From Spirodela intermedia (taxonomy: Eukaryota; Streptophyta; Magnoliopsida; Alismatales; Araceae), in contig LR746269.1 in the NCBI GenBank assembly GCA_902729315.2, positions 1,968,501 through 2,032,500 of the forward strand: DNA of 64,000 nucleotides, read 5' to 3'. The notes beneath the pieces were generated by a model. That model was given only the letters and a program-made list of their open reading frames with translations. It did no database searches and was not told where the DNA came from. Numbering within the stretch: position 1 is the first letter of the stretch; each line of letters opens with the position of its first letter. This document shows, one piece after another, positions 497 through 63,407 of this stretch. The position numbers and the translations under genes are program-made.

Positions 497-879
497 ATGC
501 GGCACGACGCTGGCATTCTCCTCGCTCTCTTCTGCATCCTCCTGGCTTCTCTGGTGGCATCAGTCTCCACAGCCTGGCCCGGGCAAGCGACTTACAAACT
601 TACGAGAAGGTGCGCTCAGTGCTGGCGGAGGCCAGATTGAGGAGGGAAGGATCCGAGGTTTGGCCCGTGGATTCGTGGCGGTCCGACAAGAAGAGTGGGC
701 GTCGACCGCCGAGATTGCCACCACCTCCACAATCAAGACCGATAGCCAGTCAGCTCAGACTGCCGATTCGCAGCTTCAGGCCTCCACCGCCAACTTAAGC
801 TCCATCGCCGCCGCCGACGATGCGTTCCCCCATGGTCCCCGGTTACTGGCCGCCCCCGCCGCCTCCGCGCTATGGGTAG
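497..879 (+). pseudogene. A1, broken copy of subfamily A secreted proline-rich peptide
   Basis: The copy starts with an ATG at 497 that opens a good signal peptide (MRHDAGILLALFCILLAS...). Relative to intact copies it carries an 8-bp tandem duplication in the codons for the conserved A-T-Y-E-K-V segment (about 576-591), which shifts the frame by two. The rest of the protein (TYEKVRSVLAEARLRRE, then a proline-rich part) continues in the shifted frame. It meets one nonsense codon at 796-798 and then reaches the usual tail GYWPPPPPPRYG and a TAG at 877-879. Two independent lesions make it a pseudogene, although both halves are well preserved. I do not recognise the family. Confidence 0.8.
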
Positions 880-1345
880 CATTGTAGACTGGCACGAACC
901 TGATCTCCGAAAATCACACCAAAATGGAAAACCATGTATGATTTTTTTCGAGCAAAAACTGGGCAACGTAAGCAAAAGGGAGCTTTTATTGCGGCAAGTT
1001 TGTCATTCTTGCGGATTTTCTCCACGACTTATTAGTCTACAAAAGTGGCTCTGCCATAGTCTTCAAATAAGGAGAATAATTAATAAAATTACTACGGATG
1101 GAGTTTGGTTTAGTCCCACAACCTTTATCAACACCTTGGATTGCGCGAGCTGGGCAAGGTCACCATGTGAAACCTGATATGTTGACCGAGTCGAAAAAAT
1201 AAAGACGAAAACTGGGTGCTTTTGAAGTTAATCTTCGTTACAAAGCCATATGAAGCTCCTATAGAACCACAGATACCACAAGGAAAATGTGAATTTCAGA
1301 AATTCAAGGTAAACAACTATGGTGTAATTTTGAATCTTCTTATTT
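880..1345 (+). repeat. A-type 3' module
   Basis: Downstream sequence shared by the A copies. It contains the recurring block with TTTAATCC/TTTAGTCCC, then CACCAACACCTTGGATTGCG and GAGCTGG, followed by GAAACTTCAAAA-like and CATGTGAAACCTGATATG-like stretches. It probably covers the 3' UTR and spacer. No coding potential is seen. Confidence 0.6.
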
Positions 1346-1770
1346 AATAGGTAAAATTAGGAAGACGTCGTGCACCAAAGCATAAGAGGGGACATTAAAC
1401 CAAACTCGGTCAGGTTCCCCTTGGGGTTTAAGTCGTTGATCAATTCAAACATCTGCAGTCAGCGATGATGTCATACTAATAACAAATAATAGTCAGAGTT
1501 GATGTCCTACTGATAACGATTGATGGCGGGGCGCAATCCCATCTTAGAGGGATACTGTATTATTACGAATAACAATTTATAATTAATTATGGTAATTTAA
1601 AAATGATAAAAGCATCTTCAGATCAAACTACCATATTTCTGGAAGAGTTTCGAAACTGATTTGTTAGACTTCTGTCCAGGTTTCAGCCTTTGGTGCGGCC
1701 CCGGTCTAATGGGAACCGTGTGGTCAAGCTTCTTCATACGTAGGTTGTCAACTTGCGCCGTGCCTTTTGG
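1346..1770 (+). promoter_or_regulatory. Type I upstream module (promoter-like spacer)
   Basis: The conserved spacer begins near CGTGCACCAAAG, continues through TTCCCCTTGGGGTTTAA and a GATGATGTCATACTGATAAC-like stretch, and ends in CCCCGGTCTAATGGGAACCGTGTGGTCAA-like sequence. In other copies it leads into a TATA core and a coding region. Here it runs straight into an unrelated GC-rich block. Confidence 0.55.
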
Positions 1771-2030
1771 TGCACAACGTCGTAGCGCCGATGCGCTCGG
1801 GTTTTGTGCCGCCGGGTGCCGGTGTCGTGCCAACGAGTGCGTGTGCCGTGCCGCTGTGCTCGGCCATTGTGTTAGTGCGCGCCGGCGCGCGCCGCAGTGT
1901 TGTCGCCAGAGGTGGTTCCTGTGGAAGGACCCTGATAACACCCGGGCTTTGCTAAGGAAATCTCCCCTAAAGACGCCGAATGCCCCCCAACCCGAACCAC
2001 CGGATCGAAACGCTTAGCCCCAGGGGGCTT
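1771..2030. other. GC-rich unidentified block replacing a B coding region
   Basis: A block of about 260 bp rich in CpG and CGCGCG sits between a type I promoter module and a B-type 3' module, where a B coding region would be expected. Both strands are open over about 100 codons, but the composition alone explains that. I recognise no protein. It may be a captured genomic fragment or part of a retroelement. Confidence 0.35.
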
Positions 2031-2560
2031 CCACCGACACCAGTGCATTTTTTCCTGTAAAGACAGGCAATAGGAGAGAAGAGGAAAAATACTGTTTGGA
2101 AAGGAAATTAATGACCGAAGATACACCAAATTAAGGTTATTATCTTTTTGAATGTATACATAATTAGATGACGAAGAAGATACCTGATAAATCATCTCAT
2201 CCCCTGCGTCATCTTCCTCAATGGCGGGATCTTCGGGTAACCGGGAGCCACTTCCTGTGACTATTGCTAGGGAATAGGAGTCTAACTATCACAATCCTGT
2301 TACATCTGAAATATATTGCCCATGCCAGCACATGGTCTCAAACTATTTAGATGACGAGTATGCCCTCCTTCTATTCGCAAAAGAAAATGAGTTTGAGAAA
2401 GCCACTTGTGACTTCTTTTGAGCATTTCATCATCTCTACCTTTGTCGACCTCAATAGATGGTGCTTGTGGATGTCCAATAAACTGCGAACCTGACCTATG
2501 CTTGCATTGAAAACTTGACCTATGGCAGGATTCAAATGCTGACCTCTAGTCAGCATATTG
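2031..2560 (+). repeat. B-type 3' module
   Basis: The sequence matches the regions downstream of B3, B4 and B5. It starts at the position of the B stop codon (TTTTTTCCTGTAAA), then has AGAGAAGAGGAAAAATACT-like sequence, the minus-strand exon-like segment, and the TGGATGTCCAATAAACTG phrase. It shows that a B unit once stood here although its coding part is gone. Confidence 0.55.
2184..2270 (-). other. Conserved antisense exon-like frame, copy 1
   Basis: On the minus strand this reads 29 codons with no stop, containing VTGSGSRL and a run of acidic residues, and ends in ATTTATCAG followed directly by the splice-donor-like GTATCT. The start codon seen in copies at 52414 and 60458 is changed here (CTA). 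The same frame recurs in at least five other B-type 3' modules with length differences in multiples of three. Its function is unknown. Confidence 0.45.
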
Positions 2561-3289: not shown

Positions 3290-3780
3290 CAGATCCACTA
3301 GTAGGAATCAGTCGGGCATACAAATCCACTGCAGACGATAGGAACTCGACAGCACACCAGGAAGAGCAGCAGACCATTAGGATCTTCTAACGATGACTGG
3401 GCCAGTTGGGTGATTAAGAGACCAAGGGGTGACGGTGTCGAAGCTATTCAGGCAGGGACGGTGGGCTTTCCAATGATATGAAGCAACGCTGGGCATTTGG
3501 GAGGACACGGAAGAATACGGAGGAAATGGCTGACGTCGGAGACTTGCCATCTCACTTAACCAACACCTTGAATTGCGCAAGCTGGCATGAGATCTGAGTG
3601 AAACTTCAAAAAAACAAGATCAGCATGTGCAACTGAATTCTTGACGAAATTAATAATCACAAAATAAAAATTGGTTCTTTGAGGTAAATCTGTGTTAGCT
3701 ACTAATATGGATCTCCTAAATATCCATATATAGCATGAGAAAGGCGAATTTTGGAGATCCAACTTTTATGGGGTAATTTA
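3290..3780 (+). repeat. A-type 3' module preceded by an unidentified 250-bp insert
   Basis: From about 3545 the sequence is the A 3' module (ACCAACACCTTGAATTGCGC and the following AACTTCAAAA). The A coding part that should precede it is missing. In its place, 3290-3544 is an unmatched moderately GC-rich segment whose minus strand is open for 67 codons but resembles nothing I know. Confidence 0.4.
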
Positions 3781-4225
3781 GAATCTTATTAATTAAAAGG
3801 CGAAATCAGCAAGAGAGCGTGCACCAAGGCAAAGTAGGGAACACCAAACCTGCGCTCGGTTAGGTTCCTCTTGGGGTTTAACACGGGTCCGCGTCGTTGT
3901 TCTATTTGAACATCTGCGGTCAACGATGATGTCATACGGATAACAAATGGTAGGGAGAGTTAACTTGGAGTATGAAAAACCACAGCCGGGCTACTGTACA
4001 GCTAGGTGCTATCCGATCTGACAGTGATGGGCTATTACTATAGACATCAATTTATAATTTATTATGTTAATTTAGAAATAATTAAAGCATTTCAGGTCAG
4101 ACTAGCATTAATCTCTCTCTCTCACTGCGTCGCTCTCTCTCTCTTCCTCTCGTTCTGTCTCTCATTCTATGACTTTTCTGCCCTACCCCTCCCCCTGTTC
4201 TGATTATAAGGTCCTCTCCCCTACC
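3781..4225 (+). promoter_or_regulatory. Type I promoter module of A2
   Basis: This is a full copy of the module: GTGCACCAAGGCA, GGTTCCTCTTGGGGTTTAAC, GATGATGTCATACGGATAAC, then GAGAGTTAACTTGGAGTATG, a CT run, and the core TGATTATAAGGTCC at 4201. The equivalent of the GTTGACTT W-box-like element of other copies is changed to GTTAACTT here. Confidence 0.55.
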
Positions 4226-4432: not shown

Positions 4433-4768
4433 ATGGATCTGGCAGCGATGCGGCGCGACGCTGTCATCCTCCTCGCTTTCCTTTGCATCGTCCTGGCTTC
4501 GCCGGCGGCATCGGTCTACAGAGCATGGCCCGAGCACGCGACCCACGAGAAGGTGCACTCAGCACTGCCGGAGGCCTGGTTGAGGAGGGAAGGATCCGAG
4601 TTTTGGTCCATGGATTGGTGTTGTTGACCGCTGAGAACGCCACCACCGTAAATATTCCGTTACAGACCCGTTTGATTAAACCACAACCTCGACCTATTTC
4701 GCCACCTCGACCTCGCCGGCGCTGACGATGCGTTCGACCCCCGCTCCCCTCCTCGCTATGGCACGTAG
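4433..4768 (+). pseudogene. A2, broken copy of subfamily A secreted proline-rich peptide
   Basis: The ATG at 4433 matches the preferred family start (MDLAAMRRDAVILLAFLCIV...), and the signal peptide and the AWPEHAT...LRREGSEFW segment are intact. A deletion of roughly 20 bp then removes the codons for the conserved W-x-S-D-K-Q-R-R segment just after the W-x-x-D-W motif. The frame now ends after DWCC at 4627. Homology continues beyond the break through a decayed proline-rich part to CGCTATGGCACGTAG at 4754-4768. It would make a 64-residue truncated secreted peptide if transcribed. I call it a pseudogene. Confidence 0.75.
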
Positions 4769-5295
4769 ATGATCTTCTCGGAAGATAAGTTCAAAACGGA
4801 AAATCATGTATAATTATTTTGCCAACATAAGCGAAAAAGGAGCTTCTTTTATTCCGGCAAAAAACGAGTTTGTGAATATTGCGACTTTCTTCCTAAGTTA
4901 TCAGTAAATCAAAATGGGTCGGGCATAATCTTGACATATGAAGGCATACTATAATAAATAAGTGCGATGTACGAACTTCGGTTTAATCCAAGCTTCACCA
5001 ACATCTTGGATTGCGCGACCAGGTCTGAAATCTTAACGAAACTTCAAAACAGTGAGGCCACCATTTACACTTAATATCTTGAACAAATCAAAAAGTACAA
5101 ATAAAAATTGGTACTTTGACGTAAGTCTTAGTTACCGACCTATATGGATCTCCTAAATAGCCATACATAGCATGAGGAAAATGTGAAATTTATAAATTCA
5201 AGTTTTACGGTGTAATTTGGAATCTTCATTTTTAAAAGGTAAAATTATCAAGACGCCGTGCACCAAAGAAAAGGAGGTGACACCAAACGCACTTG
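4769..5295 (+). repeat. A-type 3' module
   Basis: Conserved A downstream sequence with TTTAATCCAAGCTTCACCAACATCTTGGATTGCGCGA-like order, GAAACTTCAAAACAG, and the GGATCTCCTAAATAGCCATA phrase. Non-coding. Confidence 0.55.
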
Positions 5296-5889
5296 GTCAG
5301 GTTCCCCTTGGGGTTTAACAGGGGTCCAGGTCCTTGATCCATTCGTACATCTGGAGGCAAATATGATGTCATACTGATAATAAATGGTAGGGAATGTTGA
5401 CTTGGACTATAAGAAACAACCGCGGGGGTAGTGCTCAGCTGGGCGATATGCCGTCAGAAACGGATGGGATATTATGACAGATAACTACTTATAACTTATT
5501 ATGTTAATTAACAATCAATAAAAGCACAGGTCGAACTACCTTCTTCTTGGAAGCTTTCAGAACCTAATCCTTTAGACTTTTGTGCGGTTTTCAGCCTTGG
5601 GTGCGGCCCCATTCCAATAGGAACCATCTTGTCAATCTTTTTCATACATGAATGGTCTAGCTTCATCAATCCCTCTCTCTCTCCCTTTCTCGTTCTACGA
5701 CTTTTATGTCCTACTGCTCCCCCTCTTCCGATTATAAGATCCCCTCCCCCGCCTCATCCCCGCCTTCTCCCTTGATATCATCCTCTCTTCCGATGGTAAG
5801 ATCCCCTGCCCCACCTCGTCCCGGCCGATTTCATCCCAGCCTTCTCCTTCGATATCATCCTCTGTTCCAATTATAAGATCCCCATGAAA
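5296..5889 (+). promoter_or_regulatory. Type I promoter module with the core repeated three times
   Basis: The usual upstream module includes a W-box-like TTGACTTGG near 5397. It ends in the core CCGATTATAAGATCCCC at about 5729-5745. The core plus its CT-rich leader (CTTCTCC.TTCGATATCATCCTCTCTTCC) is then repeated twice more, as GATGGTAAGATCCCC near 5793 and AATTATAAGATCCCC near 5868. No A or B coding region follows, because an inverted copia fragment lies immediately downstream. Confidence 0.55.
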
Positions 5890-7546: not shown

Positions 7547-8216
7547 CGACGTATAAACTTTGATTTAATCCAAGATTCACCAATACCTTGGGTTGCGTAA
7601 GTAGGTTTGAGATCTTAACGAAACTTCAAAATAGTCAAGGTCACCATGTGACACGATATATTAAGAAAATAAACAAAATAGAAAATGAATACTTTATTGT
7701 AACTCTTAGTTACCTACCCATATGGACCTCCAAAAGCGCCATAAATATAGCATGAGAAAAATGTGAAATGTAGAAATTAAAGTTTTAAAATGTAATTTGT
7801 AATCTTCTTATTTAAAAGCTAAAATTAGCAAGATGACGTGCACCAAACCACACTTGGTCAAGTTCCCCTTGGGGTTTAACGCGGGTCCAAGTCGTTGATC
7901 CATTCGTACATCTGTAGTCGGATGTCAAGTCATACTGATAGCAAATGTTAGGGTGTTGACTTGGACTTTGAGAAACCACAACCGGGGTAGTGCAGAGCGG
8001 GGTGCTATCCTACCCAAGAGGGATGGGATATTATTGCAAATAAAAATATGAAATTTATGATGGTAATTTAAAATTAATAAAAGTATCTTCAGGTCAGACT
8101 ACCACCTTCTTTGAAGCTTTCGGAACCTGATCCGTTTTACTTCTGTACGGGTTTCACGCACTCTCTCTCTCCCTCTTCCCTCTTATATTAATATCCCCCC
8201 GCTCCTCCCCCTCCCT

Positions 8217-8480: not shown

Positions 8481-8686
8481 CCTACCTCGTCCCAGCAAAT
8501 TCATCCCGCCCTTCTCCTTCGATATCGTCCGCTCTCTTCCTCGCCACTCCTGACCTGGTTTCTCCCGTCTCCCCCTATCCTACCATCTCTTCATTTCTCT
8601 ACCCATACCGTCCAGTGATAACCTTCATACCGTCAACCTGTGCCGTCCCCCTCGCCGTCTCGTCCAGTTGCGTGGATCTGGTGGCG

Positions 8687-8974
8687 ATGCGGCGCGACGC
8701 TGTCATCCTCCTCGCTCTCCTATGCATCCTCCTGGCTTCCCTGGCAGCTTCGGTCTCCACAGCCAGGCTGGAGCACGCGACCTACGAGAAGGTGCGCTCT
8801 GCGCTGGCGGAAGCCAGGTTGAGTAGGGAAGGACCCGAGTTTTGGCCCGCGGATTGGTGGCTGTCTGAGAAGCGGCGTCGGGGTCGACGGGTGAGATTGC
8901 CGCGGCCTCCACGATCCAGAACACCATTCTATCCGATCGAACCGCCGGGTAGCCCCGTCTGGCCGCCACCTTGA
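8687..8974 (+). CDS. A3, secreted proline-rich peptide family member with altered C-terminus
   Basis: The frame from the ATG at 8687 gives 95 residues: a signal peptide (MRRDAVILLALLCILLASLAAS), the conserved ATYEKVRSALAEARL segment, FWPADWWLSEKRRRGRR, and the start of the proline-rich region. It then stops at 8972-8974. The upstream codon that is ATG-Asp-Leu in other copies is GTG here, so the second Met is the likely start; an in-frame ATG at 8615 would add 24 residues. Homology to the family tail (CCCCCGGTTACTGG... near 9030) continues past the stop in another frame, so this is a C-terminally truncated member. The hallmark motifs are intact, but function is doubtful without the tail. Confidence 0.5.
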   Translation: MRRDAVILLALLCILLASLAASVSTARLEHATYEKVRSALAEARLSREGPEFWPADWWLSEKRRRGRRVRLPRPPRSRTPFYPIEPPGSPVWPPP

Positions 8975-9560
8975 CCTCCACCGTCGCCTCGACCTTCCGT
9001 CGCCGCCGAAGCCGCGTCAGGCCTGGGTCCCCCGGTTACTGGGCACACCCGCTCCCTCCGCGCTGTGGGTGGCATCGCGGACTGGCACGAACCTGATCTC
9101 CTTGGAAAATAAGCCCAAAATGGAAAATCATATATAATTATTTTGACGGCAAGAATTGAACAAAATAAGCAAAAAAGGAGCTTTTTTTGCGGCAAGTTTA
9201 TCAACACTACGGCCTTTCTTCACGAGTTATCAGTAAGCAAAATGGGTCAGCCGTAAACTTGAATTAATAAGACATTACAATCAATGAATTACCACGTACG
9301 AACTTTGCTTTAATCCCAGCTTCACCAACACCTTGGATTGCGCGAGCTGGTCTTGAAACCTTAACGAAACTCAAAATAGTTAGGCCGCCATGTGACACCT
9401 TATATATTGACCAAATAAAAGAAGTAAAATAAAAATGTGTACGTTAAAGTAAGTCTTAGTTACTAACCCGTATGGAGCTCCTATAGAGCCATAAATAGCA
9501 TGAGGAAAATGTGAGTTTTAGAAGCTTACGTTTTATGGTGTAAGTCTGAATGTTGTTATT
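8975..9560 (+). repeat. Decayed A3 tail and A-type 3' module
   Basis: This holds the remains of the A3 C-terminal codons to about 9075. The A 3' module follows with TTTAATCCCAGCTTCACCAA, CACCTTGGATTGCGCGAGCT and CTTAACGAAACTCAAAATAG. Non-coding. Confidence 0.5.
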
Positions 9561-9985
9561 TAAAAGGTAAAATTAGTGAGTCAACGTGTACCAAAGCAGA
9601 GGAGGGGACACCAAAGTGCACTTGGTAAGGGTACCTTTTGAGTGCAGAACGGGTTGTCCAACTATTGACCCATTTATGTATCTGAAGTCAGCGATGATGT
9701 CACACAAAAAATAATAGGGAGTGTTGACTTGGGGTGTAAGTAGCCACATCAGGTGCAGTGCACAGCGGGGCACTATGCCATCCGAGAGGGATGGGAAAAT
9801 ATTATTATAATTTAACATCTTAATTTGCAAAATAATAAAAGCATCTTCAGATCATTCTAACATCTTCGTAGAACCCTTTTGAGGCTCGTCCGCTATATTT
9901 TTGTAGGGGTCCAGTCTTATGTGCAGCCCCAATGTAATCGGGTCCAAGTGGTCAGTCTTTTTCATACGTGAATTGTCAACCTGCG

Positions 9986-10798: not shown

Positions 10799-10990
10799 AT
10801 GAATCTAGTAGTAAGGGTGCATTTTCCTACCATGCTCCTTGGTCTCCTCCACACCCTCTTGTCTCTGCTAGGTTGTTAGGAGTCTGCCACATGGGTCAAA
10901 CAAGTGGCTTACAAGTAGCTGGAGGTGATATTGTCATGGACGGGGTTAGAAGCTGTGGTTAGTGTGTAATAATGTGGTACAATCTAAGTG
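10799..10990 (+). pseudogene. B2, broken copy of subfamily B secreted peptide
   Basis: The ATG at 10799 begins MNLVVRVHF..LLGLLHTLLSLLG, matching the B signal peptide (compare B3 MDLVVRVHS). A nonsense codon follows immediately where intact B5 continues. Homology persists through codons for SATWVKQVAYK (compare AWAEQVSYDK in B5), followed by another stop. The rest has decayed. CG dinucleotides are largely replaced by TG/CA, as expected of old methylated sequence. Confidence 0.65.
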
Positions 10991-11530: not shown

Positions 11531-11639
11531 TAGCTGTGGTTTGATATATTAACTCAAAGTACATCAGATATTATCTTTTTAGATAGAAAAGAATTTAATA
11601 TTACGGAATAAGTTACAGAGTTACAGAGAAGGAGAGACC

Positions 11640-11971
11640 CTTGCCTTCTTTCCCAGAGCGAGAGGGAGAGAGAGAGGGGGAGAGGTGGAATGGAGAGGAA
11701 AGGTAGGGAGGGAGGAAGAGGAAGAGGGAGAGAGAGAGAGGGGGGAGAGGTAGAATGGAGAGAGGAAAGGTGCGGGGAGGAGGGAGAGGTAGAGAGAGAG
11801 AGAGAGAGGGGAGAGGTGGAATGGAGAGAGGAAAGGTGAGGGGGGAGGAAGACGTAGAGGGAGAGAGAGAGAAGGGGAGAGGGGGGAGAGGTGGAATGGA
11901 GAGAGGAAAGGTGGGGAGGAGGAATAGGTAGAGGAAGGGAGGGAGAGGGAGAGAGAGGGAGAGGGAAGAGG

Positions 11972-12006
<35 letters not shown>

Positions 12007-12134
12007 GGAGAGAGAGCGAGAGAGATAATGAGAGAGACAGGGGGGAGAGAGAGAGAGGGAGAGGGAAGAGGGAGAGAGAGCGAGAGAGATAATGAGAGAG
12101 AGAGAGGGGGAGAGAGAGAGAGAGGGAGAGGGAA

Positions 12135-12170
<36 letters not shown>

Positions 12171-12455
12171 TAATGAGAGAGAGAGAGGGAGAGAGAGCGA
12201 GAGAGATAATGAGAGAGAGAGAGGGGGAGAGAGAGAGAGAGGGAGAGAGAGCGAGAGAGAAAGCGGGAGAGCGAGAGAGGGAGAGGAGAGAAAGAGAGAG
12301 AGAGAAGGAGAGAGAGAGAGAGAAGAGAGAGAAAGAGAGAAGGAGAGAGAAAGAGAGAGAAAGAGGCAGAGCGAGAGAGAAAGAAAGAGAAGGAGAGAGA
12401 GAGAAGGAGAGCGAGAGATAAAGAGAGAGAAGGAGAGAGGGAGACAGAAAGAGAG

Positions 12456-12486
<31 letters not shown>

Positions 12487-12548
12487 AGGAGAGAGAGAGA
12501 AGGAGAGCGAGATAAAGAGAGAGAAGGAGAGAGGAGACAGAAAGAGAG

Positions 12549-12621
<73 letters not shown>

Positions 12622-12694
12622 CAAGAGATAAAGAGAGAGAAGGAGAGAGGGAGACAGAAAGAGAGACAGATAGAGAGAGAGAGAGAGAGAGAGA

Positions 12695-12779
<85 letters not shown>

Positions 12780-12790
12780 CGGGAGTGGGA
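11640..12790. repeat. 1.15-kb GA/CT low-complexity tract
   Basis: Almost uninterrupted purine tract on the plus strand. It is built of (GA)n with recurrent higher-order units such as GGTGGAATGGAGAGAGGAAAGGT (left part) and GAGATAATGAGAGAGAG or AAAGAGAGACAGATAGAGAG (middle and right). Long reading frames in several registers are artefacts of the composition. The tract separates the left array from the single-copy block. Confidence 0.9.
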
Positions 12791-12799
12791 GGGCAGAAT

Positions 12800-14061
12800 A
12801 GAGGGGGCTGGGGATAGGGAGAAAGGAAACAGGACGGCGGAAAAGGAAGGAGTTGCTTTTCTGCTTTGGCTTTTCTATTTCCTATCTTTTCTCGCATGTG
12901 CATCACTACGCACGCAAGAAACGGACGAACTCTTCTCCGTCTCTCCTTGCCATTTAATGCTCATCGATCTTTGAAGCGAAGACGCAGTGAGTGGTCGTGG
13001 ATGTTTTCTAGCTTTAAGTAATAAAATATTTCCAGTAATAAGCTCAGATATTTCAAGGCTAATATGTGAACATTCTACTTGTCATTACTCCAAAAAATCT
13101 AATGATCAAATCTTTCTTAGTGACCCTCGGCACCCAACGTAAAACAAGTTTTAATCATAATATTGGAATTATTACCTTAATGGGAGAATATTCCTTGATT
13201 CTTCACATGTATTTCTGATATGAATATATTAAAACTAAAGAATACATGCATAAATTTGATAGCAAAGAATTGAGGCATATAACTCGTAAGAAATTATCAA
13301 TAAGAGGAGTCTTATATCTATAATCACAATATTTCCGTTTACACTTTTGCCATGAAATATTTCTTTTACCCTTATTAAAGGACTTGTTGGGTATTCTTTA
13401 TAGAGCTCATTCTCGAAGGTTGGTTCCTGCAAGGTCTTGACAATGTCCAGCCTCAGCCCAACACTGTGTATAACATATCTATATACATGTATATACATGG
13501 GGGGAGAGGGAGGGAGAGAGAGAGATGCCAGTGATCATAGCATAGTCATCTACCCGAAAAACAAGTTGTATCCAGTTGAAGATCGAACTTCATTCATGAA
13601 GAAATTGAGTTGAACCGTGATTAATTCTCTTTCCATTAGTGATTTTGTAGCCAACGTCAAAAATAAATTTGGTCGAGCTTTTGACGTTGTTGGTTCATGT
13701 AACCCTAATTTTGTGGCCCAACAGAAGAGAATATAATCGTATGCTTTTAAGGAGACAACATAATAGCGCAATTAATGACCGATTGGCAATGCGAAGAGAT
13801 TGGGGTTATTATTCACAGGATATTTCACTGAATATACGTTCGAAGACATTTTATTCTCTGTCACAAGATGATGCTACACGTACTCGAAAGTATACATTGT
13901 ATAATGAAGGGGAGAGCAAGAGAGAGAGGGTAGAGTTTCATCTGCACTAGTTGTACAGCATTTCATGGGGAGACCACGGATATATGTCCTATGATGTGAT
14001 TTACGAACCCCAATGCATCTACATGCACCGATTATTTATATGTTTTCTGTAGAGTATGACT
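12800..14061. other. Intergenic, no gene seen
   Basis: AT-rich sequence with a short GA run near 13500-13530. It probably contains the 3' UTR of the minus-strand CIF gene near its right edge. I see no convincing exon, RNA gene or transposon. Confidence 0.4.
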
Positions 14062-19436: not shown

Positions 19437-19913
19437 TCAGTAATGGAATACGTCGGTGGCCGCCACGACGGCCTGTCTGCCAAAGGAGGAGAAGCCCCAC
19501 TGGTTCATGAACCTGCCGCCGTCGACAGCAGCCGCAGGCCCCTCACAGAGAAACCTGCTGCCGTCCCCCACGGCTGGCTGGAGTATCTCCTCAAGAGACT
19601 GCAACCGGCGGCTCAACTCCACAAGCCGTGCCCTCAGCACGGCGTTCTCCGACTGTACCGCGAGGCGGCGCCGCCCGACCACCTTGAGGTTAGCGAGGAT
19701 CTGTAGGTTCTCCTCACCGAGACGCAACGCCTGCGCCGCCAGGTCGCCGAGTTGCTTCCGCTTGCGCATTCGGGACCGCCTCGCCGACTCCCTGTTGGAC
19801 AACATTCGCTTCCGCTTCCTTTGCTCTGCCGCCGGTGGGAGAGCCCCTTCAGACACTGAGTTGGCGTGCTGGGTGGAGGCCGAGGAGGTACCACTCCCCA
19901 AGGGAGAAGCCAT
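19437..19913 (-). CDS. Group S1 bZIP transcription factor (bZIP11/44/53-like)
   Basis: A single-exon gene of 158 residues, the intronless layout usual for group S bZIPs. Residues 32-55 form the basic region (RKRKRMLSNRESARRSRMRK) with the invariant N-x7-R spacing (N40, R48). A long leucine zipper follows to about residue 111. The N-terminus is Ser/Gly rich and the C-terminus ends in TDVFHY. S1 bZIPs bind ACGT-type sites, usually as heterodimers with group C bZIPs, and control amino-acid and sugar metabolism under low energy. The assignment to S1 is settled by the sucrose-control peptide in the leader at 19992-20117. Which S1 paralogue it is cannot be told here. Confidence 0.9.
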   Translation of the reverse strand: MASPLGSGTSSASTQHANSVSEGALPPAAEQRKRKRMLSNRESARRSRMRKRKQLGDLAAQALRLGEENLQILANLKVVGRRRLAVQSENAVLRARLVELSRRLQSLEEILQPAVGDGSRFLCEGPAAAVDGGRFMNQWGFSSFGRQAVVAATDVFHY

Positions 19914-21877: not shown

Positions 21878-21905
21878 TTACGAGGCCACCACCGGGGCAG
21901 CAACA

Positions 21906-21936
<31 letters not shown>

Positions 21937-23727
21937 GAGCAGCAGCGGCGACTTCAGGATGGTAGAAGTGCATCTCTCTCCACATCATCTCCCTGATCGA
22001 CTCCTCGTCGAGGTCTTCATCGAGGTCGAGATCGATGGGGACCTCGGCAGGGGGGTTGGAGTTGGGATCGTAGAGCGGCGACATGTAGGGGTGGTGCAGG
22101 GCCTCGGTGACGCTGATCCTCTTGGAGGGGTCAAATACCAGCATCTTCTTGAGCAGGTCGATGGCCAGTGGGTTTGCATGGGGGTAGAGCGTGGAGAAAG
22201 GGATCCCGGGGGTGTAGGGGAGGGACTTGATGTACTTACGGGCCTTGGGGTTGTCGATGAACTCGAGGTCCGCATCGTTGATGGTGCCGAGGATGTTGAC
22301 GATGAGCTTCAGCTGGTTCAGGCAGTCGGTGCCGGGGAAGATGGGCTTGCGGCCGAGCAGCTCGGCGAAGATGCAGCCGACCGACCAGACGTCGATCGAG
22401 GTGCCGTAGTAGTCGCAGCAGAGGAGCAGCTCCGGGGCCCGGTACCAGCGGGTGACGACATACTCGGTCATCAGCTGGCCCTTGGCGTTGCTGGTGCGGG
22501 CCAGGCCGAAGTCGCAGATCTTGAGCTCGCAGTTGGCGTTGACCAGGAGGTTCCCGGGCTTCAGGTCTCTGTGGAGGATGTTCGCCGAGTGCAGATACTT
22601 GAGCGCTCGGAGCAGCTTCGCGCGATCAAGAACAGAGTTTGTTATTCTCAAATGATTCAGTTCCAGCATCAGTAAAACCAAACATAAGTAAATAAATAAC
22701 AGGAAGTTAGAAATTAAAAACGGGAAAATAACAGCCGTTGATTGAAGAACAATCCGAGTTAGTATTGAGTTTCATGATCTTTCGTTCATGCCTCCTAAAG
22801 CTGCCATTATAGGTTGAATCCACATTATCAGCAGAGTCTGCTCAAAGTCTTGTGAAAATCTCCAACATTGGTATTGTAAGATGGATGCCCATTCAGACAA
22901 AAAAAATTGAATGATGCGTTTGAACAGATTCCGCTCTGCTCAGCGCAGGCAAGATTAATTCAGTGGGAAGGTTTGAACCCGAAATCCTAACAATCCACAA
23001 CAGTTACCTTGAGCACAAGACCCTGACCATTTATTTAAATAAAATAAATCATAAGGAAATAAAACTAGAAACTTTAGGAGATTTTTACTGTGAAAACAGA
23101 AAATGCAAGAACAAATTAATGGTTCTTGGTTACAAAACAATCTTAGCATTTCCCAAATGTTTTACTTGCTGAAAACTAATGAGAGGTTATATTATATTGC
23201 TCATGGACGCTATTTTCTTCCACCGGAAAACTTGGATTCTGATGGGCAACCGGTGACGATTCTACAGAGAAAGTTATCAAGACCGGCACTGCAGAAGCCG
23301 CGCTTACCTGGAAAAGGAAATATTGACAGTGATCATTGGAAAGGGCTTGGGAGGACTTTATTATCTGATGCAGATCCGTGTCCATTAGCTCATATACGAG
23401 GTAGACGTCCTTGAAACTCCTGCTGGCCGGCATCATGATATCCTTCAGCGCTATGACATTCTCATGACGAAGGTGACGGAGGAGCTTCAACTCCCGCAGG
23501 GTTCTGAGCGCGTCCACACGATTATCAAAGACATTATGGATCTTCTTGATCGCAACTTTCTCGTTCGTTTCTCTGTTCACTGAGGAGCACACGATGCCAT
23601 ATGCCCCTCGACCGATCGGCTTGATGGGCACATACTTGGTGTCAATCTCAAACAGGGTTTGCCACATTGCATAGTAGTGCTTGCCCTGGATCCCAATGCC
23701 ATTTGGAGGATCGACCAACGTAGCCAT
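21878..23727 (-). CDS. Group C mitogen-activated protein kinase (TEY type), two coding exons
   Basis: Exon 1 (23727-23308, 140 codons) and exon 2 (22615-21878) join phase 0 across a GTAAGC...AAG intron to give 385 residues. The start [11 protein letters not shown] and the [20 protein letters not shown] segment are typical of group C plant MAPKs (AtMPK1/2/7/14 clade), which also share this two-exon layout. Visible motifs are the glycine loop GRGAYG (39-44), the VAIKK lysine (about 61), HRDLKPGN (155-162), DFG (175-177), and the activation loop TEY (190-192) in [14 protein letters not shown]. An acidic C-terminal docking domain follows (about 345-360). The last 25 residues are an alanine/valine-rich extension encoded by a GCT/GCA-type repeat. 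MAPKKs phosphorylate T and Y of TEY; this clade acts downstream of MKK3 in known plants. The catalytic residues are complete. Confidence 0.93.
21900..21945. repeat. Trinucleotide (CAG/CTG) repeat encoding polyalanine in the MAPK
   Basis: A run of CAG/CAA triplets on the plus strand reads as GCT/GCC/TTG-register codons on the coding strand and gives the Ala/Val tail of the kinase. Triplet tracts of this kind vary in length between alleles. Confidence 0.6.
22616..23307 (-). other. MAPK coding intron
   Basis: 692-bp AT-rich intron with donor GTAAGC. The acceptor lies in ...GATCGCGCGAAG, directly before the codons [10 protein letters not shown]. The acceptor lacks a good pyrimidine tract, but the protein alignment ([13 protein letters not shown]) demands it. 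Confidence 0.75.
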
Positions 23728-23731
23728 GGTT

Positions 23732-33611: not shown

Positions 33612-34013
33612 ATGGATCTGCCGGCGATGCGGTGCGACACATTCATCCTCCTCGCTCTCCTCTGCGTCCTCCTGGCTTCTCCGGCGGCATCGGTCTCCAC
33701 AGCCTGGCCCCAGCATGCGACCTATGAGATGGTGCGCTCAGCACTAGCGGAGGCGAGATTGAGGAGGGAAGGAGCCGAGTTTTCGCCTGCGGATTGGTGG
33801 CTGTCTGACAAGCAGCGTCGGCGTCGACCGCTGAGATCGCCGCCACCTCCAATATCAAGACCGATTGTCAATCAGAACAGACCGCCGGCTTTCAGCCGCA
33901 GGCCTCCGCTATCATCTCGGGCTCCACCACCGCCTCGAAGTCCGCCGCAGGTGGCGCTGTGTTCGCCACCGATTCCCGCTTACAGAAGATCCCCGCCCCC
34001 TCCGGGCTATTGA
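33612..34013 (+). CDS. A4, intact secreted proline-rich peptide, subfamily A
   Basis: 133 residues from the ATG at 33612 (MDLPAMRCDTFILL...), the start conserved in A2 and A8; an in-frame ATG at 33519 would add 31 residues of no signal-peptide character. A hydrophobic signal peptide (residues 8-28) ends near VSTAW. Then come HATYEMVRSALAEARLRRE (about 32-50), FSPADWWLSDKQRRRR, and a C-terminal half that is proline, arginine and serine rich (SRPIVNQNRPPAF, then many Pro) closing in AYRRSPPPPGY. There is one cysteine in the tail and no membrane segment beyond the signal. No known family fits. A secreted peptide precursor or a small proline-rich wall protein is the most natural reading, and processing at the Arg-rich stretch is possible. 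Confidence 0.7.
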   Translation: MDLPAMRCDTFILLALLCVLLASPAASVSTAWPQHATYEMVRSALAEARLRREGAEFSPADWWLSDKQRRRRPLRSPPPPISRPIVNQNRPPAFSRRPPLSSRAPPPPRSPPQVALCSPPIPAYRRSPPPPGY

Positions 34014-39466: not shown

Positions 39467-39775
39467 CCTGCAACATCCTCTTCGCTCTCATTTGCCTTCT
39501 CTGGACTTGGCTGGCAATATTGGTCACCACAATCTTGCTAGAGATTGCAAGATATCTGAAGGTCCAGTCAGGACTGGCACAAATTTGATTGAGGGGGATG
39601 GAGCTGTGTATTGGCTAGTGGGTTGGTGGCAGTCCAACAAAAAGTGTGGACAATGACTGCCAAGATCAGTGTCACCTCCATGATGTAGACCAATAAGCAA
39701 TTGGCGTAGACTGCCAACTTGACCTCCACTGTCAGTGATGCTGTGCTCCCCTAATTACTGGCATGAATTTAGTGT
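39467..39775 (+). pseudogene. A5, strongly decayed subfamily A copy
   Basis: It aligns along its length with intact A genes at nucleotide level (ATCCTCTTCGCTCTCATTTG for the signal peptide; TTGGTGGCAGTCCAACAAAA for the DWWQSDK segment; CCTAATTACTGGC for the PGYW tail). Most CG dinucleotides of the intact copies are TG or CA here, and the frame is broken repeatedly. It is a long-methylated dead copy. Confidence 0.65.
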
Positions 39776-43164: not shown

Positions 43165-43503
43165 ATGGATCTAGTAGTAAGGGTGCATTCTGCCGCTGTC
43201 CTCCTCGCTCTCCTCAATGTCCTGCTAGCTCTGCTAGGCAAGCAAGATTCCGCTGCATGGGTTTCATAGGTGACCTACGAGAAGGTAGAGTCGATGTTTG
43301 CATGGATTGGGCTAGGAGCCATGGGCGGGGCCCAAGCCTTACTAGGAGAAAGTCCTCCAAGGCAGCCACCGCCCCCACAATCCAAGCCATTGGTCCCGCA
43401 AAGGGTACCAAATCTTTTCCTTGGTTGGTGTCAACCACCACCACCACATTTTCCCTGTAAAAATCATCTAGAAGAGAAAAATTACTATTCCAAAAAGAAA
43501 TGA
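43165..43503 (+). pseudogene. B3, subfamily B copy with one nonsense codon
   Basis: The ATG at 43165 gives MDLVVRVHSAAVLLALLNVLLALLG, a signal peptide, then a TAG at 43267-43269 where B5 has CAA in AEQVSY. After the stop the frame stays open to 43503: TYEKVESMFAW, then PPRQPPPPQSKPLVP, and a tail with QPPPPHFPCK. So a single C-to-T nonsense change separates the two halves. Residues beyond about 43455 run past the usual B end. It would be intact but for that one codon and a few tail changes. Confidence 0.6.
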
Positions 43504-44038: not shown

Positions 44039-45872
44039 TTGGTTAGAGTCTTATTTTAGCACAAATTGAGATACAAGATATCTACTCAATTTGATATTGA
44101 GAAGTTCGATTGAAGCATCAACTTTAGAATATGGTAGGCCAAGATGAGAGCTCTCATGACCCACCAAGGGCTACATAAAGTATTATTGGGAAAAGAGAAA
44201 ATGTCAAACACTATATCTATGGAAGCAAAAACAAAAGTTAGATGAAAAGCTCTTGCTATAGTTCAACTTAATTTATCTAATGAGGTTCTACGTGAGGTCA
44301 TTCATGAAACTACAAGAGTTGTATTATGGTTGAAATTGGAGTCACTATATATGATAAGATCACGAAACTATTTCTAAAGCAACATCTATTTGTGCTCAGG
44401 ATGGTAGAAAGTACATCAATTAAAGTTCACCTTGATGAGTTCAATTCTATTTTACTAGATTTAAAAAATATTAATGAAAGAGTAAAGGAGGAAGAAGACG
44501 AAGCCATGTTTTTGTTATATTCCTTACCACCATCATATAGACACTTTCTAGAAACTTTATTATATGGTAGAAATATTATATTTGTTAAAGATGTTAAATC
44601 TTCTTTGTTTTCAAAAGAGTTGATTGACAAAGATATGACTATTATTTCAAAAGGACAGTAACATGAAGGTCTTATTGCAAGAAGTAAACCTAAGGAGAAA
44701 AGTCAAGGAAGAAATAGAGGTGAGTCAAGATCCAAATTAAAATTCAAAAATAAGTTTTGTAATTATTGTCGCAAAAAAGGACATGTGAAGGCTGACTGTT
44801 ATAAACTCAAGAGAAGGCACCAAGAAGACTCAAAAGAGTTTACTTATGGTAAAAGTTCAACACATGCTAGTGATGCCAAAGCCGAGACTTATGATTTTGT
44901 TCTTTCTGTTCATATTATCAAATCCAAAGATGATTGGATCTTTGATACAGGTTGTTCATATCATATGACTCCTCATAGAGAGTATTGTTCCACTTATGAG
45001 CAGATCAATGGTGGAAACGTCTTAATGGAAAATGATGCCTCATGTAAGACTATTGGTATTGGCACAGTTTGAATCGAAATATTTGATGGTATCACAAGAA
45101 TATTATCTAATGTCGAGCATGTTCTCGAAGAAAAATCTCATTTCTTTGAGCACACTTGAAGCTAATGGCTATAAATATTTAGGTGAAAATTGGGTCATAA
45201 AAGTCAGCAAAAGAGTCCTTGTGATGAAAGAACAATAGTGTGGTACCCTCTACACTCTATTAAGGATCACTATTTCTAGTTTAGTCGTTGCAACATCTAC
45301 CTCAATGACAGAAGAAGATGTCACCAAATTGTAGCATATGAGGTTGGGACATATGAGTGAGAAAGGAATGAATCTATTAAGCAATAGAGGCTTACTTTGT
45401 TGGCAAAGTATTAGTAAGGTGGAATTTTGTGAGCATTGCATTTTAGGTAAGCATAAAAGAGTTAACTTTCAAATGGTAACTCACAAGAGCAAAGGTACTC
45501 TTGATTATATCTAGTTGGATCTTTAGGGTCCTTCTCGCGTCCCTTCAAAAGGTGTTGCTCGTTATTTTCTATTATTTATTGATGATTTTTCTTGAAAAGT
45601 TTAGGTATTCATGCTTAAGCATAAATCTGAAATTTTTATGTACTTTAACAATAAAAGACTTTGCTTAAAAGTTAAACTAAGAAGAAAATCAAAAGGTTGA
45701 TGACTGACAACGGTCTAAAATTCTATTCCACTGAATTTCATGATTTTTGCAAAAACGAAGGTATTGCAAGTAGAGGACAGCTTGTTATACTCCACAACAA
45801 AATAGAGTTGTAAAAAGAATGAATAAAACTTTACTAAAATGAGTCTGTTGTATGCTATTATTTGTAGGTCTT

Positions 45873-51922: not shown

Positions 51923-52195
51923 ATTGATCTAGCAGTAAGGATGCTTTCTGCCGCCACCCTCCTCGCTCTCCTCCATGCGTTGCTTGCTCCGTCATGTTGT
52001 CGGAATTTCGCCACATGGGTCGAACATGTGATCTACCAGCAGGTGGAGTTGGCGTTGGCGTGAACGTTGCCAGGAACCGAGGCCGGGGCCCGCTCTTTGC
52101 TGGGCAACTTGCCTCAATTGGGATGCCGAGCCCAAAACCTGCAGGGATGCCGCCCGTGCAGCGTCCACTGACACCAATACGTTTTTTTCCGGTAA
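51923..52195 (+). pseudogene. B4, broken subfamily B copy
   Basis: The start codon is ATT (ATTGATCTAGCAGTAAGGATG). The signal peptide codons (LAVRMLSAATLLALLHALLAPS) and FATWVEHVIY are readable. After VELALA a TGA ends the frame, and the proline-rich part survives only as decayed sequence up to TTTCCGGTAA at 52186-52195. A pseudogene. Confidence 0.65.
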
Positions 52196-53973: not shown

Positions 53974-54330
53974 ATGGCGATGCAGCGCGACGCTGGGATC
54001 CTCCTCGCTCTCCTCTGCAGCCTTCTGGCTTCTCTGGCGGCTTTGGTCTCCACAGCCTGGCCTGAGCACGAGACCTACGAGGAGGAGCAGTCAGCGCTGG
54101 CGGACGTCAGACTGAGGGAGGAAGGAGACCCGATTTGGCCGGTGGATTGGTGGCAGTCCGACAAACAGCGTTGGCGTCGACCGCGGAGAACGCCGCCACC
54201 TCCACGATCCAGACCGATACGCAATGAGCGCGGACCGCCGGCTTTCAGCCGAAGGCCTCCACCGCCGCCGCCGACGCTTCGTCCTCCCCCCGGTTACAGG
54301 CGACCCCCGGCCCCTCCGCCCTACAGGTAG
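53974..54330 (+). CDS. A6, intact secreted proline-rich peptide, subfamily A
   Basis: 118 residues. The MDL start of A4/A8 is lost, so translation probably begins at MAMQRDAGILLALLCSLLAS. The signal peptide should end near LVSTAW. The conserved parts are HETYEEEQSALADVRLREE, then IWPVDWWQSDKQRW, then RTPPPPRSRPIRNERGPPAF, and a tail GYRRPPAPPPYR ending in TAG. Compared with A4 and A8 the middle proline-rich part is about 15 residues shorter, an in-frame difference. That the frame and both end motifs survive amid such length change hints at selection. Secreted, basic, Pro-rich; role unknown. Confidence 0.68.
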   Translation: MAMQRDAGILLALLCSLLASLAALVSTAWPEHETYEEEQSALADVRLREEGDPIWPVDWWQSDKQRWRRPRRTPPPPRSRPIRNERGPPAFSRRPPPPPPTLRPPPGYRRPPAPPPYR

Positions 54331-55359: not shown

Positions 55360-55620
55360 ATGTATCTGGCGGCGAGGGTGCGTTCCGCCGTCCTCCTCCT
55401 CGCTCTCCTTCATGTGCTTCTGGCTCCGCCGGGCCGTCGGGACTTCGCCGCATGGGCCGAACAAGTGAGCTATGACAAAGTGAAGTCGGCGTCGGAGCGG
55501 ACGAGGCCAGGAGTCGCGTCCAGACGACGCCCGCCCCCAGAAGGCAGACGACATAATATAATTGGTATAAACCCCCTGCCGGAACCACCACCACCACCGC
55601 CAACGCGTTTTATCCCGTAA
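55360..55620 (+). CDS. B5, intact secreted proline-rich peptide, subfamily B
   Basis: 86 residues from the ATG at 55360, the start shared with B2 and B3 (an in-frame ATG at 55312 would add 16). The signal peptide is MYLAARVRSAVLLLALLHVL, with cleavage likely near FAAW. Then AWAEQVSYDKVKSASERTR matches the AWPEHATYEKVRSALAEAR of subfamily A. The distinct tail is SRRRPPPEGRRHNIIGINPL, then PEPPPPPPTRFIP and TAA. The W-P-V-D-W-W motif of A is absent. It has no cysteine. It is the only open member of subfamily B in the window. The shared N-terminal half and different C-terminal half suggest a common precursor with different mature peptides. Confidence 0.6.
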   Translation: MYLAARVRSAVLLLALLHVLLAPPGRRDFAAWAEQVSYDKVKSASERTRPGVASRRRPPPEGRRHNIIGINPLPEPPPPPPTRFIP

Positions 55621-56343: not shown

Positions 56344-56345
<2 letters not shown>

Positions 56346-56374
<29 letters not shown>

Positions 56375-58767: not shown

Positions 58768-59155
58768 GTGGCGATGCAGCGCGACGCTGAGATCCTCCTC
58801 GCTCTCCTCTGCAACATTCTGGCTTCTCCGGCGGCTTTGGTCTCCGCAGCCTGGCCCGAGCACGCGACCTACGAGAAGGTGCGCTCAGAGCTGGCGGAGG
58901 TTAATCTGAGGGGGGAAGGAACCCCGATTTGGCCGGTGGATTGGTGGCAGTCCGACAAACAGCGTGGGCGTCGACCGCGGAGAACGCCGTCACCTCCAAA
59001 ATCCGGACGCGAAAGGGACAAATCAGGGAATTCCCTCCGAAGTCCGCCACCCCCGCCTCCATCTCCGCCGACGCTGACGCAGTGTCCCCCCCTTGCCCGG
59101 TTACTGGCGACCCCCGCCCCCTCCGTCCCCTCCGCCGCCTCCGCCCTACTGGTAG
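58768..59155 (+). pseudogene. A7, subfamily A copy with a frameshifted tail
   Basis: It starts MAMQRDAEILLALLCNILAS like A6. The conserved AWPEHATYEKVRSELAEV, then IWPVDWWQSDKQRGRR, are intact. In the proline-rich region the frame shifts, so the ancestral tail (codons for PGYWRPPPPP ... PPYW and TAG at 59153-59155) is out of frame. The open frame instead runs through the 3' module to 59442, giving a 224-residue product with a foreign C-terminus. The N-terminal two thirds are intact, so a secreted product remains possible. I favour pseudogene. Confidence 0.65.
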
Positions 59156-59600
59156 CGGCGTGGACTCGCACGAATCTAGTCTCCTTGGAAAACAAGCTCA
59201 GAATGCAAAATCATATGTTTATTTTGCCAGCAAAATTCGACCATAGTACGCATAAAAGGAGCTTCCCGTACTGCGACAACTTTATCAACTTTGCGGACTT
59301 TCTTCAGGAGTCATCCAGTCGACCAAAATGGGTCCGCCATACCCTTCAAATAACGAGAAATACCATAATTAATAATATACCACGTACGAGCTTTGCTTTA
59401 ATCCCAGCTTCGCCAACACCTGGATTTCATGAGCTGGTCTGAGATCTGAATGAAACTTCAAAACAGCGAGGTCACCAGTTAAGACCTGATATGTTGAAAA
59501 AAAGACAATCAACCAAGTTTTAGTTACGTACGCACATGAAATCTCCTAAAGAACCATAGATAGGATCAGGAAAATGAGAATTTTAGGAATTCAAGTTTCA
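59156..59600 (+). repeat. A-type 3' module
   Basis: CCACGTACGAGCTTTGCTTT, AATCCCAGCTTCGCCAACAC, GAAACTTCAAAACAGCGAGG in the usual order. Non-coding apart from the A7 readthrough. Confidence 0.5.

Positions 59601-59948: not shown

Positions 59949-59994
<46 letters not shown>

Positions 59995-60633: not shown

Positions 60634-60637
<4 letters not shown>

Positions 60638-60710
<73 letters not shown>
60638..60710. repeat. Compound (CT)n(CA)n microsatellite
   Basis: About 35 bp of CT followed by about 36 bp of CA. Homologous to the shorter tract at 56346-56410. Confidence 0.85.
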
Positions 60711-61249: not shown

Positions 61250-62240
61250 CAGGCAGCCGAGCACAACAGCCGGTCATTTTTTGTTTACAGATAAATGGAG
61301 GGAGGAGTACGGAAAAATACCGTTACTGAATTCTGAACTACAACCTCGTTCTATGGATATATCTTGGATCAGCCCCCAAGAAGAACGGACTCCGTTTTCC
61401 TCCATCTCGCCCGCCCTCTTCTCTTCCTCCGTCTCATTTCGATGCTCATTCAGTAAATTCTCTACAGCATCGGTAGCAGGCGGCCCCAAGGTCCAATGTT
61501 TCCGTCGTCTAGGCTGCTCTCCCTCCTCGCCGGGATGTACTGGCAGCGTTCTGATAAGACTTTCCTTCGCCTGCAGCCGTAAACCTCCACGTGAGTGGGT
61601 TACATGGCGAGCTCAATCCATGGCGAGCAGGGGGCACCTCGAGAAGGGAAAAGGAACATGAATTTCTCCGATGCTGCCCTCCGCGGTTGCCGACGACTAG
61701 ATGGCGGCGGTCCTCTCTTATCGGATCCCTCTTACGCACCCAAGCCCCAGCCTCCAATGCTAAGCCCCGGCGGCGCTTTCCAGCCAGTCCCTGATTCTCC
61801 TTCTTAGTCGGCTGGAGGATGGGAGAGAGAGCACTTCGGAGACGCGTCGGCCCGCAGGGATCTGGCGAGCGGGGTTGGGTTATCGTCCGAGAGGGATAGC
61901 GCCGCCCATCACCCCCGGATTTTTAACTCCTCTTCCTCTGACTGTCCTCTGGCGGCTCCTTCCTTTTTGATTTCCGCCACCGCACCCTCTGTGGCCTTCT
62001 CCTTACCCCTCAAGAGGTCGAGGAAGACCGTCTGCCTCTTTTTCTGCGACGAAACCCGCGCCCCAGCCGGACGCATCGCCGCCTAGAGCGATGCCATTGA
62101 ACTTCGCAGCATAACTTGGAGGTCACTGGGTTCGCTGATCAGATCTCCCTTTGTTCTGATCCCTTATTTCTCTGGGTAACTCTACGAAAACCTTCTCCAT
62201 CTTGTTCGATCTCTGTTCTGGAGGACCTTTGAGGACGGCT
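61250..62240. other. Unique GC-balanced segment inside the array
   Basis: Not matched elsewhere in the window. It contains exon-like frames, for example from the ATG at 61496 (MFPSSRLLSLLAGMYWQRSD) and one ending at 61807 (GGAFQPVPDSPS), but none is long or recognised. It may be captured genic DNA or the start of an unrelated gene. No call is made. Confidence 0.3.
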
Positions 62241-62559
62241 TCTTCTTCTGTTTGTAGAGACAATCAGCAGTAGCAGCGTGGATAGAGTAGCTTGTTTTTT
62301 ATCGTTTATTTGTCCTTTTCCTCCCCCCTCTGCCTTCCTGTTTGCTGGGACTAGCAGGAGCAGCCGCGTGGATGAAATGGATCGTCTTTCCTCTTCGGGC
62401 GTAGTTCTTCACCTTTTTCTGGCGAATATCAGCGCGATTTTCCGCCATTGGCTGTGAATAACTGCAGGCTTTCTCTCATTGTCTAATCTCTCACTGGCTC
62501 CCCTTTGTTACTATTTTAAAACATAAAGTCAAAATAACTTTTAGAAAATGGAGAACCCA

Positions 62560-63002
62560 ATAAGCTGATAAAAGATATCATAGACTGATTTTGATTGAAA
62601 TATATTGGATGAAAACACATGGAAGACAGATTTTTTAAGTTTCCAGTGGGCCCCACGTAGGAAACGCTTGACACTCCAACTCCACTTCATGGGTTTCATA
62701 ACAGAAAAGAAATAATTACTGTATATAATTGAGGGAAAATATGTGAAGCAATGGGAATTCTAACTTATTAACGTTATTGACATGACTACAACAAGAACAC
62801 TTGACTTGTCACGTACTTTCCTTCCAGTTAATAACCTTTTATAGATTTTATTGGAAAGAAGGATGTGATTTCTACGGTCAACATTGGCGTTCCACCAGCT
62901 GTAGGGCTCTCGCCCATCATAAGAGTCACGCCGAGCCAGCTGTCAATGCTAGCGGCGCTTCTTTCCTCTTCCTCCACCTACGCCAGCCCCCTCCTCTCCG
63001 CC
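62560..63002 (+). promoter_or_regulatory. Type II upstream module of A8
   Basis: GATAAAAGATATCATAGACT, TTTTGATTGAAATATATTGG, GTGGGCCCCACGTAGG, CGCTTGACACTCCAAC, then the leader GATGTGATTTCTACGGTCAAC and GCGTTCCACCAGCTG. Confidence 0.55.
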
Positions 63003-63407
63003 ATGGATCTGACGGCGAAGCGGCGCGACGCTGCCGTCTTCCTCTCTCTCGTCTGTATCCTTCTGGCTTCTCCGGCGGCATCGATCTCCACAGCCTGGCC
63101 AGAGCAAGCGACCTACGAGAAGGTGCGCTCAGCGCTGGCGGAGGCCAGATTGAGGAGGGAAGCAGCCGAATTTTGGCCCGTGGATTGGTGGCTGTCAAAC
63201 AAGCAGCGTCGGCGTCGACCGCTGAGATCGCCGCCACCTCCACGTTCCAGAACGATAATCAATCAGAACAGACCGCCGGCTTTCATCCTCAGGTCTCCGC
63301 CGCCACCTAGAGCTCTGCCGCCGCCCCCACCTCCACCGCAGGTGCCGCTGCGTTCCCCCTCGGTCTCCGGTTACAGGAGACCTACGCCCCCTCGGCGCTT
63401 CAGGTAG
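63003..63407 (+). CDS. A8, intact secreted proline-rich peptide, subfamily A
   Basis: 134 residues from the ATG at 63003: MDLTAKRRDAAVFLSLVCIL. Because the second Met of the family is Lys here, this copy fixes the family start at M-D-L. The signal peptide ends near ISTAW. Then EQATYEKVRSALAEARLRRE and FWPVDWWLSNKQRRRR follow. The Pro-rich part has RSPPPPRSRTIINQNRPPAF and several Pro runs, and the tail is SGYRRPTPPRRFR with TAG. It has no cysteine in the mature part. The most complete copy, with a good type II upstream module. Product unknown; expected to be secreted, basic and probably hydroxyprolinated. Confidence 0.72.
   Translation: MDLTAKRRDAAVFLSLVCILLASPAASISTAWPEQATYEKVRSALAEARLRREAAEFWPVDWWLSNKQRRRRPLRSPPPPRSRTIINQNRPPAFILRSPPPPRALPPPPPPPQVPLRSPSVSGYRRPTPPRRFR

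Follow-up and report, generated by a model that had tools for sequence, protein, structure and literature searches.

Insect proline-rich antimicrobial peptides, such as metchnikowin, are cationic and poor in cysteine. Metchnikowin itself is a proline-rich peptide of 26 amino acids (PMC4621407). In plants, HypSys precursors are secreted and carry proline-rich stretches, and each is described as the source of several active, hydroxyproline-rich peptides of 15 to 18 residues (PMC11371470). In Lemnaceae, the MiAMP1 antimicrobial proteins are described as a lineage-specific expansion with rapid birth and death, and the same report has duckweeds without EDS1 and with secreted MiAMP1 expanded (PMC9828482). 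Here we describe an array of two related kinds of gene, A and B, on contig C6 of the duckweed Spirodela intermedia, in and around a window of 64,000 nucleotides (C6:1968501-2032500).

The array shares features with each of these systems. Like MiAMP1, it is an expanded and fast-turning duckweed family, with a defence role that is reported there (PMC9828482) and that we infer here, but MiAMP1 has a Pfam domain, whereas five A and B members that were scanned gave no Pfam match above the cut-off. Like HypSys precursors, the A proteins would be secreted, are of similar size (146 amino acids in tomato; PMC11371470) and have proline-rich stretches; unlike them, they contain a conserved tryptophan-rich block, come from a monocot and belong to a large, partly decayed array, and two profile searches found no sequence match between the two. 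The insect peptides serve as a working analogy only: the A tails are likewise proline-rich, cationic and cysteine-poor, but the A family is from a plant, has a longer tail, has no demonstrated homology to the insect peptides and is antimicrobial by proposal. Our leading interpretation, held tentatively, is a lineage-specific birth-and-death family of cysteine-poor, arginine- and proline-rich secreted pre-pro-peptides, from which a cationic peptide, most likely antimicrobial and apoplastic, would be released.

Layout and condition of the array

The sequence-only reading had described a tandem array of at least eight A and four B copies in the window, all on one strand and all with a signal peptide, a conserved segment and a proline-rich C-terminus. 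The array is real, with family sequence at or beside all 12 named places, and it overshoots the window on both sides: local searches across 124 kb, with all three frames read, gave 14 A-like and 9 B-like places, of which 8 and 4, respectively, fall inside the window. Together they span about 104 kb (roughly -28.5 kb to +75.5 kb in window coordinates), with ordinary genes between them. Every copy in the window lies on the plus strand, as had been stated; outside it some are inverted, namely A copies at -10298, about -7.1 kb and 69209 and a B copy at -9514. The uniform architecture did not hold up, A1, A2, A3, A5, A7, B10, B43 and B51 departing from it in varied ways, and the rapid decay that had been proposed was borne out, about half of the 23 A and B places being broken. 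The family is real but had been over-described, and its partial pseudogenisation is certain. Because the assembly, apparently the Nanopore and Illumina one of clone 8410 (PMC7645714), includes Illumina reads, we take most of the frameshifts and stops to be real.

When A8 was used as a translated query against the genome (136.5 Mb in 32 contigs), 25 matches had E ≤1. Nineteen of them lie in the array or at two further decayed A copies 5 Mb off, at 7.07 and 7.08 Mb; six weak matches lay elsewhere. Scores in the genome and local searches are inflated by proline-rich composition. The sequences at C6:3080471 and C9:5304817 were examined, resembled serine- and proline-rich chance similarity and were rejected, and the four weak matches on C17, C3, C4 and C5 (E 0.4 to 0.9) were dropped on score alone. 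The similarity of A8 to A4 is beyond chance (E 4e-49).

Common to A and B are a signal-peptide-like start and an A-W-x-x-x-x-x-Y-x-x-V stretch. A Y-R-R-P/S tail closes the complete open reading frames (ORFs) A4, A6 and A8, three of the eight A copies in the window. The conserved initiator site reads GTG in A3 and AAG in A6, A7 and A10, with an ATG 3 to 5 codons downstream.

Table 1. Family copies and associated segments in the window (window coordinates)
Feature	Position	Strand	Description
A1	485..873	+	A copy, frameshift past A-T-Y; ATG at 497
A2	4433..4672	+	A copy with in-frame stops, three in 330 nt
A3	8672..8974	+	Open; GTG in place of the family's start codon, with ATG at 8687; ends early, at codon 101
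B10	10799..10912	+	Decayed B copy; internal stops
A4	33612..34013	+	Complete open A gene, 133 aa
A5	39597..39716	+	A relic (named place 39467); recognisable part is DGAVYWLVGWWQSNKK only; no signal peptide recognised
B43	43165..43455	+	B copy, single stop at residue 35
B51	51923..52156	+	B copy; start site without ATG; stop present
A6	53974..54330	+	Complete open A gene, 118 aa
B55	55360..55620	+	Open B gene, 86 aa; only open B of the 4 in the window
A7	58768..59442	+	Open A gene, first ATG at 58774; tail out of frame with that of the family
A8 type II 5' region	62822..63002	+	Also in A4, A6 and A7, and in two copies beyond the window
A8	63003..63407	+	Complete open A gene, 134 aa
A8 mature core, codons 31-73	63093..63221	+	Moderate constraint across copies
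Segment D, downstream of A8	63662..64000	+	Repeated 3' segment, continues beyond the window

Constraint on the frame and on the mature core

The frame of the family is under constraint. Twelve of the 14 A places were compared, the fragments Am7 and A5 being left out. Counted from the conserved initiator site, frame 0 ran open for 100 codons or more in eight of them (Am10, Am3, A3, A4, A6, A7, A8 and A10), against one copy in frame 1 (A1) and three in frame 2 (A1, A8 and A11). Across 330 nt, frame 0 was open in 6 of 12 copies and frames 1 and 2 in one each. The coding sequence has also diverged less than its surroundings. In 15 pairs among A1, A3, A4, A7, A8 and A10, which are not independent of one another, coding bases 1 to 240 showed 17.8% substitutions and 4.0 indels per kb, compared with 28.8% and 20.1 per kb in the 3' flank (430 to 1150), so that coding indels are about five times rarer; only 5 of 14 coding indels in this set were not a multiple of three, compared with 154 of 200 in the flank. 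Six copies sharing one kind of 5' region (type II, below) gave 26.4% and 20.8 indels per kb in that flank and 17.0% and 4.3 per kb in the coding part. Neutral simulation with rates resembling those of the flanks (0.15 substitutions per site, 0.005 to 0.010 indels) left 1 to 7% of copies open, and at 0.09 substitutions and 0.005 indels it left 9 to 11% open.

Selection on the protein was estimated as the ratio of nonsynonymous to synonymous change (dN/dS, or omega), with nominal P values among about 27 omega tests and 28 pairwise estimates run in all. Pairwise NG86 values were 0.59 for A4-A8, 0.73 for A4-A6, 1.09 for A6-A8 and, with very few synonymous changes, 2.68 for A6-A7. By maximum likelihood, the core (codons 31 to 73) gave omega of 0.58 (P = 0.052), 0.44 in the four open copies A4, A6, A7 and A8 (P = 0.02) and 0.53 in seven copies (P = 0.01). 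Values for the signal-peptide codons 1 to 30 (0.98 and 1.26) did not differ from 1. The other two forward frames of the core gave 1.16 to 1.77, none significant, and its reverse frames gave 1.87 (P = 0.016, reverse frame 0), 0.50 (P = 0.004, reverse frame 1) and 1.06. Reverse frame 1 holds five stops in seven copies; since third positions are common to it and the sense frame, we take its low value to reflect the sense frame and reject a second gene there. There is moderate constraint on the mature core and none that can be measured on the signal peptide, and the whole is indistinguishable from neutrality by dN/dS. The refuting outcome named beforehand, a dN/dS close to 1 among the open copies, was thus seen over 80 codons (0.98) and not in the core, a mixed result.

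Several observations weigh against a family maintained for its product. Over 80 codons omega was 0.91 in nine copies, 0.87 in seven, 0.98 in the four open ones and 0.92 in another seven, never different from 1. About half of the places are broken, and the A tails, from which the peptide would come, vary strongly among copies. Simulation without indels left 19 to 60% of copies open, so the open-frame argument rests on indels, and the simulation assumes independent copies, an assumption that common descent and conversion violate. Synonymous distances, too, are smaller than flank distances; such low synonymous divergence points to gene conversion or to an effect of base composition, and conversion may be partly responsible for the small differences between coding sequences.

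Some of these facts make the case for a dying family, in which the ancestral gene encoded a useful secreted protein, that function is now lost, and the open copies have simply not yet been hit, with conversion helping. The broken places, the 80-codon omega in all four sets, the loss of the start codon in A3, A6, A7 and A10, and synonymous and nonsynonymous divergence both below that of the flanks, as conversion predicts, all fit this account. Set against it are the core omega of 0.44 to 0.58 (P 0.01 to 0.05), an indel rate about one-fifth of that in the flanks, and three complete ORFs in the window that end in the same kind of tail. We consider simple decay unlikely, though it is the alternative that survives best.

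The encoded precursors and the search for relatives

The seven A proteins that are open and not frame-shifted have 95 to 134 residues, a mature net charge of about +6 to +16 and an isoelectric point of 10.4 to 12.0. Their tails are 37 to 45% proline and 10 to 24% arginine or lysine, with 0 to 4% aspartate or glutamate, and cysteine beyond residue 20 is absent from five of the seven, with one in A4 and two in Am3. In composition all seven agree with the functional class of proline-rich antimicrobial peptides, being cationic, rich in proline and arginine and with few or no cysteines. The N-terminus is hydrophobic. In A8 the conserved stretch, of about 43 residues, is AWPEQATYEKVRSALAEARLRREAAEFWPVDWWLSNKQ, followed by basic residues clustered as in R-R-R-R-P; this cluster, read by eye, is a possible cleavage site ahead of the tail. 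AlphaFold2, given four sequences, placed helices at 3 to 27 (the putative signal peptide), 34 to 56 and 59 to 71 and left the tail unstructured, with low confidence (mean predicted local distance difference test score 64.5, predicted template modelling score 0.20); the conserved stretch probably forms two short helices.

No relative was found outside S. intermedia in Pfam, PDB or the protein databases, in keeping with the initial impression that the motifs belong to no known plant peptide family (CLE, CEP, PSY, CIF, IDA, PIP or systemin). A Pfam scan of A8, A6, B55, A7 and A3 gave nothing above cut-off, although short peptide families may lack sensitive models there and their motifs were not searched singly; A3 had a sub-threshold match to DUF1088 (E 0.38) and the other four had none at all. 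The A profile had no match among PDB sequences, and of 52 pattern hits in prokaryotic genomes none was confirmed. Among about 5.8 billion proteins, two A profile searches brought up 4 and 5, all from S. intermedia, in a procedure that would miss relatives without shared five-residue words; the first scored only the 7,979 candidates richest in such words, many of them surely proline-rich chance, and the second used the N-terminal part alone, from ten sequences. The B profile found no protein in the protein-database search. Among the papers on duckweed or Spirodela peptides listed from one open-licence library, the family is undescribed in titles and the openings of abstracts.

The S. intermedia protein models themselves are poor. 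By eye, four of the five found (P0003 to P0006) are truncated, change frame or fuse different copies: P0004 equals A8 over its first 62 residues and continues with a piece matching A11, and P0005 changes frame past a gap of 35 bases, as counted by eye. These models are no evidence of transcripts. The gene prediction is described as using similarity to nine reference genomes, including S. polyrhiza and Lemna minor (PMC7645714), and an annotated relative is therefore to be expected in some reference genome, probably that of S. polyrhiza.

If expressed, as we infer, the A precursor would enter the secretory pathway through its signal-peptide-like N-terminus, and the helical segment would act as a pro-domain. 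An apoplastic protease would cleave at the basic cluster, and the freed cationic, proline- and arginine-rich peptide would act outside the cell, most likely on microbes. A signalling precursor of the HypSys kind, whose tail would release a short hydroxyproline-rich peptide for perception by a receptor kinase, would share the signal-peptide-like start and the precursor size, and proline-rich stretches flanked by basic residues do occur, for example RTPPPPRSRPIRNERGPP in A6. However, neither of the two A profile searches gave a sequence match to HypSys precursors, which are described from Solanaceae and Convolvulaceae (PMC11371470), and it is the tryptophan-rich core that is constrained and the tail that varies, where a ligand would be expected to be the conserved part; we regard this alternative as distinctly unlikely. 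Least probable is a short extensin-like hydroxyproline-rich wall protein, its basic, proline-rich tail attached to pectin after hydroxylation and glycosylation. Although A4 and A8 have, by eye, two S-P-P-P-P motifs each and basic tails with a tyrosine near the end, A6 has no such motif, the family lacks periodic repeats, and a conserved, tryptophan-rich N-terminal half such as it has is not a known trait of extensins.

Probable exchange among copies and meaning of the family

Among 12 A and 8 B copies, comparison of the 280 bases lying upstream separated two kinds of 5' region. Type I occurs in A1, A2, A3, A10 and Am3 and is matched by six of the eight B copies, the 5' region of B10 matching other B copies only and that of B51 matching none; type II is found in A4, A6, A7, A8, A9r and A11, which match each other and no type I copy. 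The two kinds do not track the coding tree. That tree joins A10 (type I) with A6 and A7 (type II) at 100% ultrafast bootstrap and gives weak support (67 and 33) to a place for A3 (type I) beside A4 and A8 (type II); in the 3' flank, too, A7 and A10 form a pair (78). Most simply, the 5' regions have been exchanged among copies, and coding blocks have perhaps also been converted. Under the antimicrobial interpretation, duplication and the reshuffling of 5' regions and coding blocks would yield new variants while other copies die. A10 itself, at window coordinate 71572 and so outside the window, has a type I 5' region, yet by its coding part and 3' flank it belongs with type II copies, which points to exchange. 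TATA-like sites were seen upstream of many copies and W-box matches were scattered; neither was used as evidence.

The repeated 3' segment D, handled here as non-coding flank, appears to be confined to the family's surroundings, all 16 genome matches to a query from A8's segment D lying in the array or at 7.07 to 7.08 Mb. Other copies lie at 1154-1630, 3555-4104, 4993-5538, 7576-8101, 9320-9854, 34253-34809 and 39999-40546, some apparently without an adjoining A gene. Outside the window, an inverted pair at 68519-70945 and 73385-75814, of about 2.4 kb and 93.6% identity, is the most similar large duplicate among the matches listed; each member holds an A copy minus the same 39 coding bases.

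Other features of the window include about 1 kb of GA/TC-type simple repeat at 11554-12906, with long spurious ORFs on both strands. From the ORF list, by eye, protein kinase exons with a MAP-kinase-like T-E-Y motif lie at 21878-23784 on the minus strand, an ORF at 19437-19913, also on the minus strand, resembles a small bZIP transcription factor, and ORF fragments at 44326-45072 resemble a copia-type retroelement gag.

The boldest form of our interpretation, a new family of plant cationic proline- and arginine-rich antimicrobial peptides that is confined to duckweeds and has a tryptophan-rich helical pro-domain (W-P-V-D-W-W), reshuffled coding blocks and two kinds of 5' regulatory region, is one that we hold to be rather unlikely. 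If the family is merely decaying, it is a case of ordinary gene death. It also illustrates how poor the models of small orphan secreted genes can be. As a fast-evolving, cationic, secreted family without a known match, it would be a candidate of the MiAMP1 sort, and if the boldest form is true, it would be a chemical arm of defence in plants that are reported to lack EDS1.

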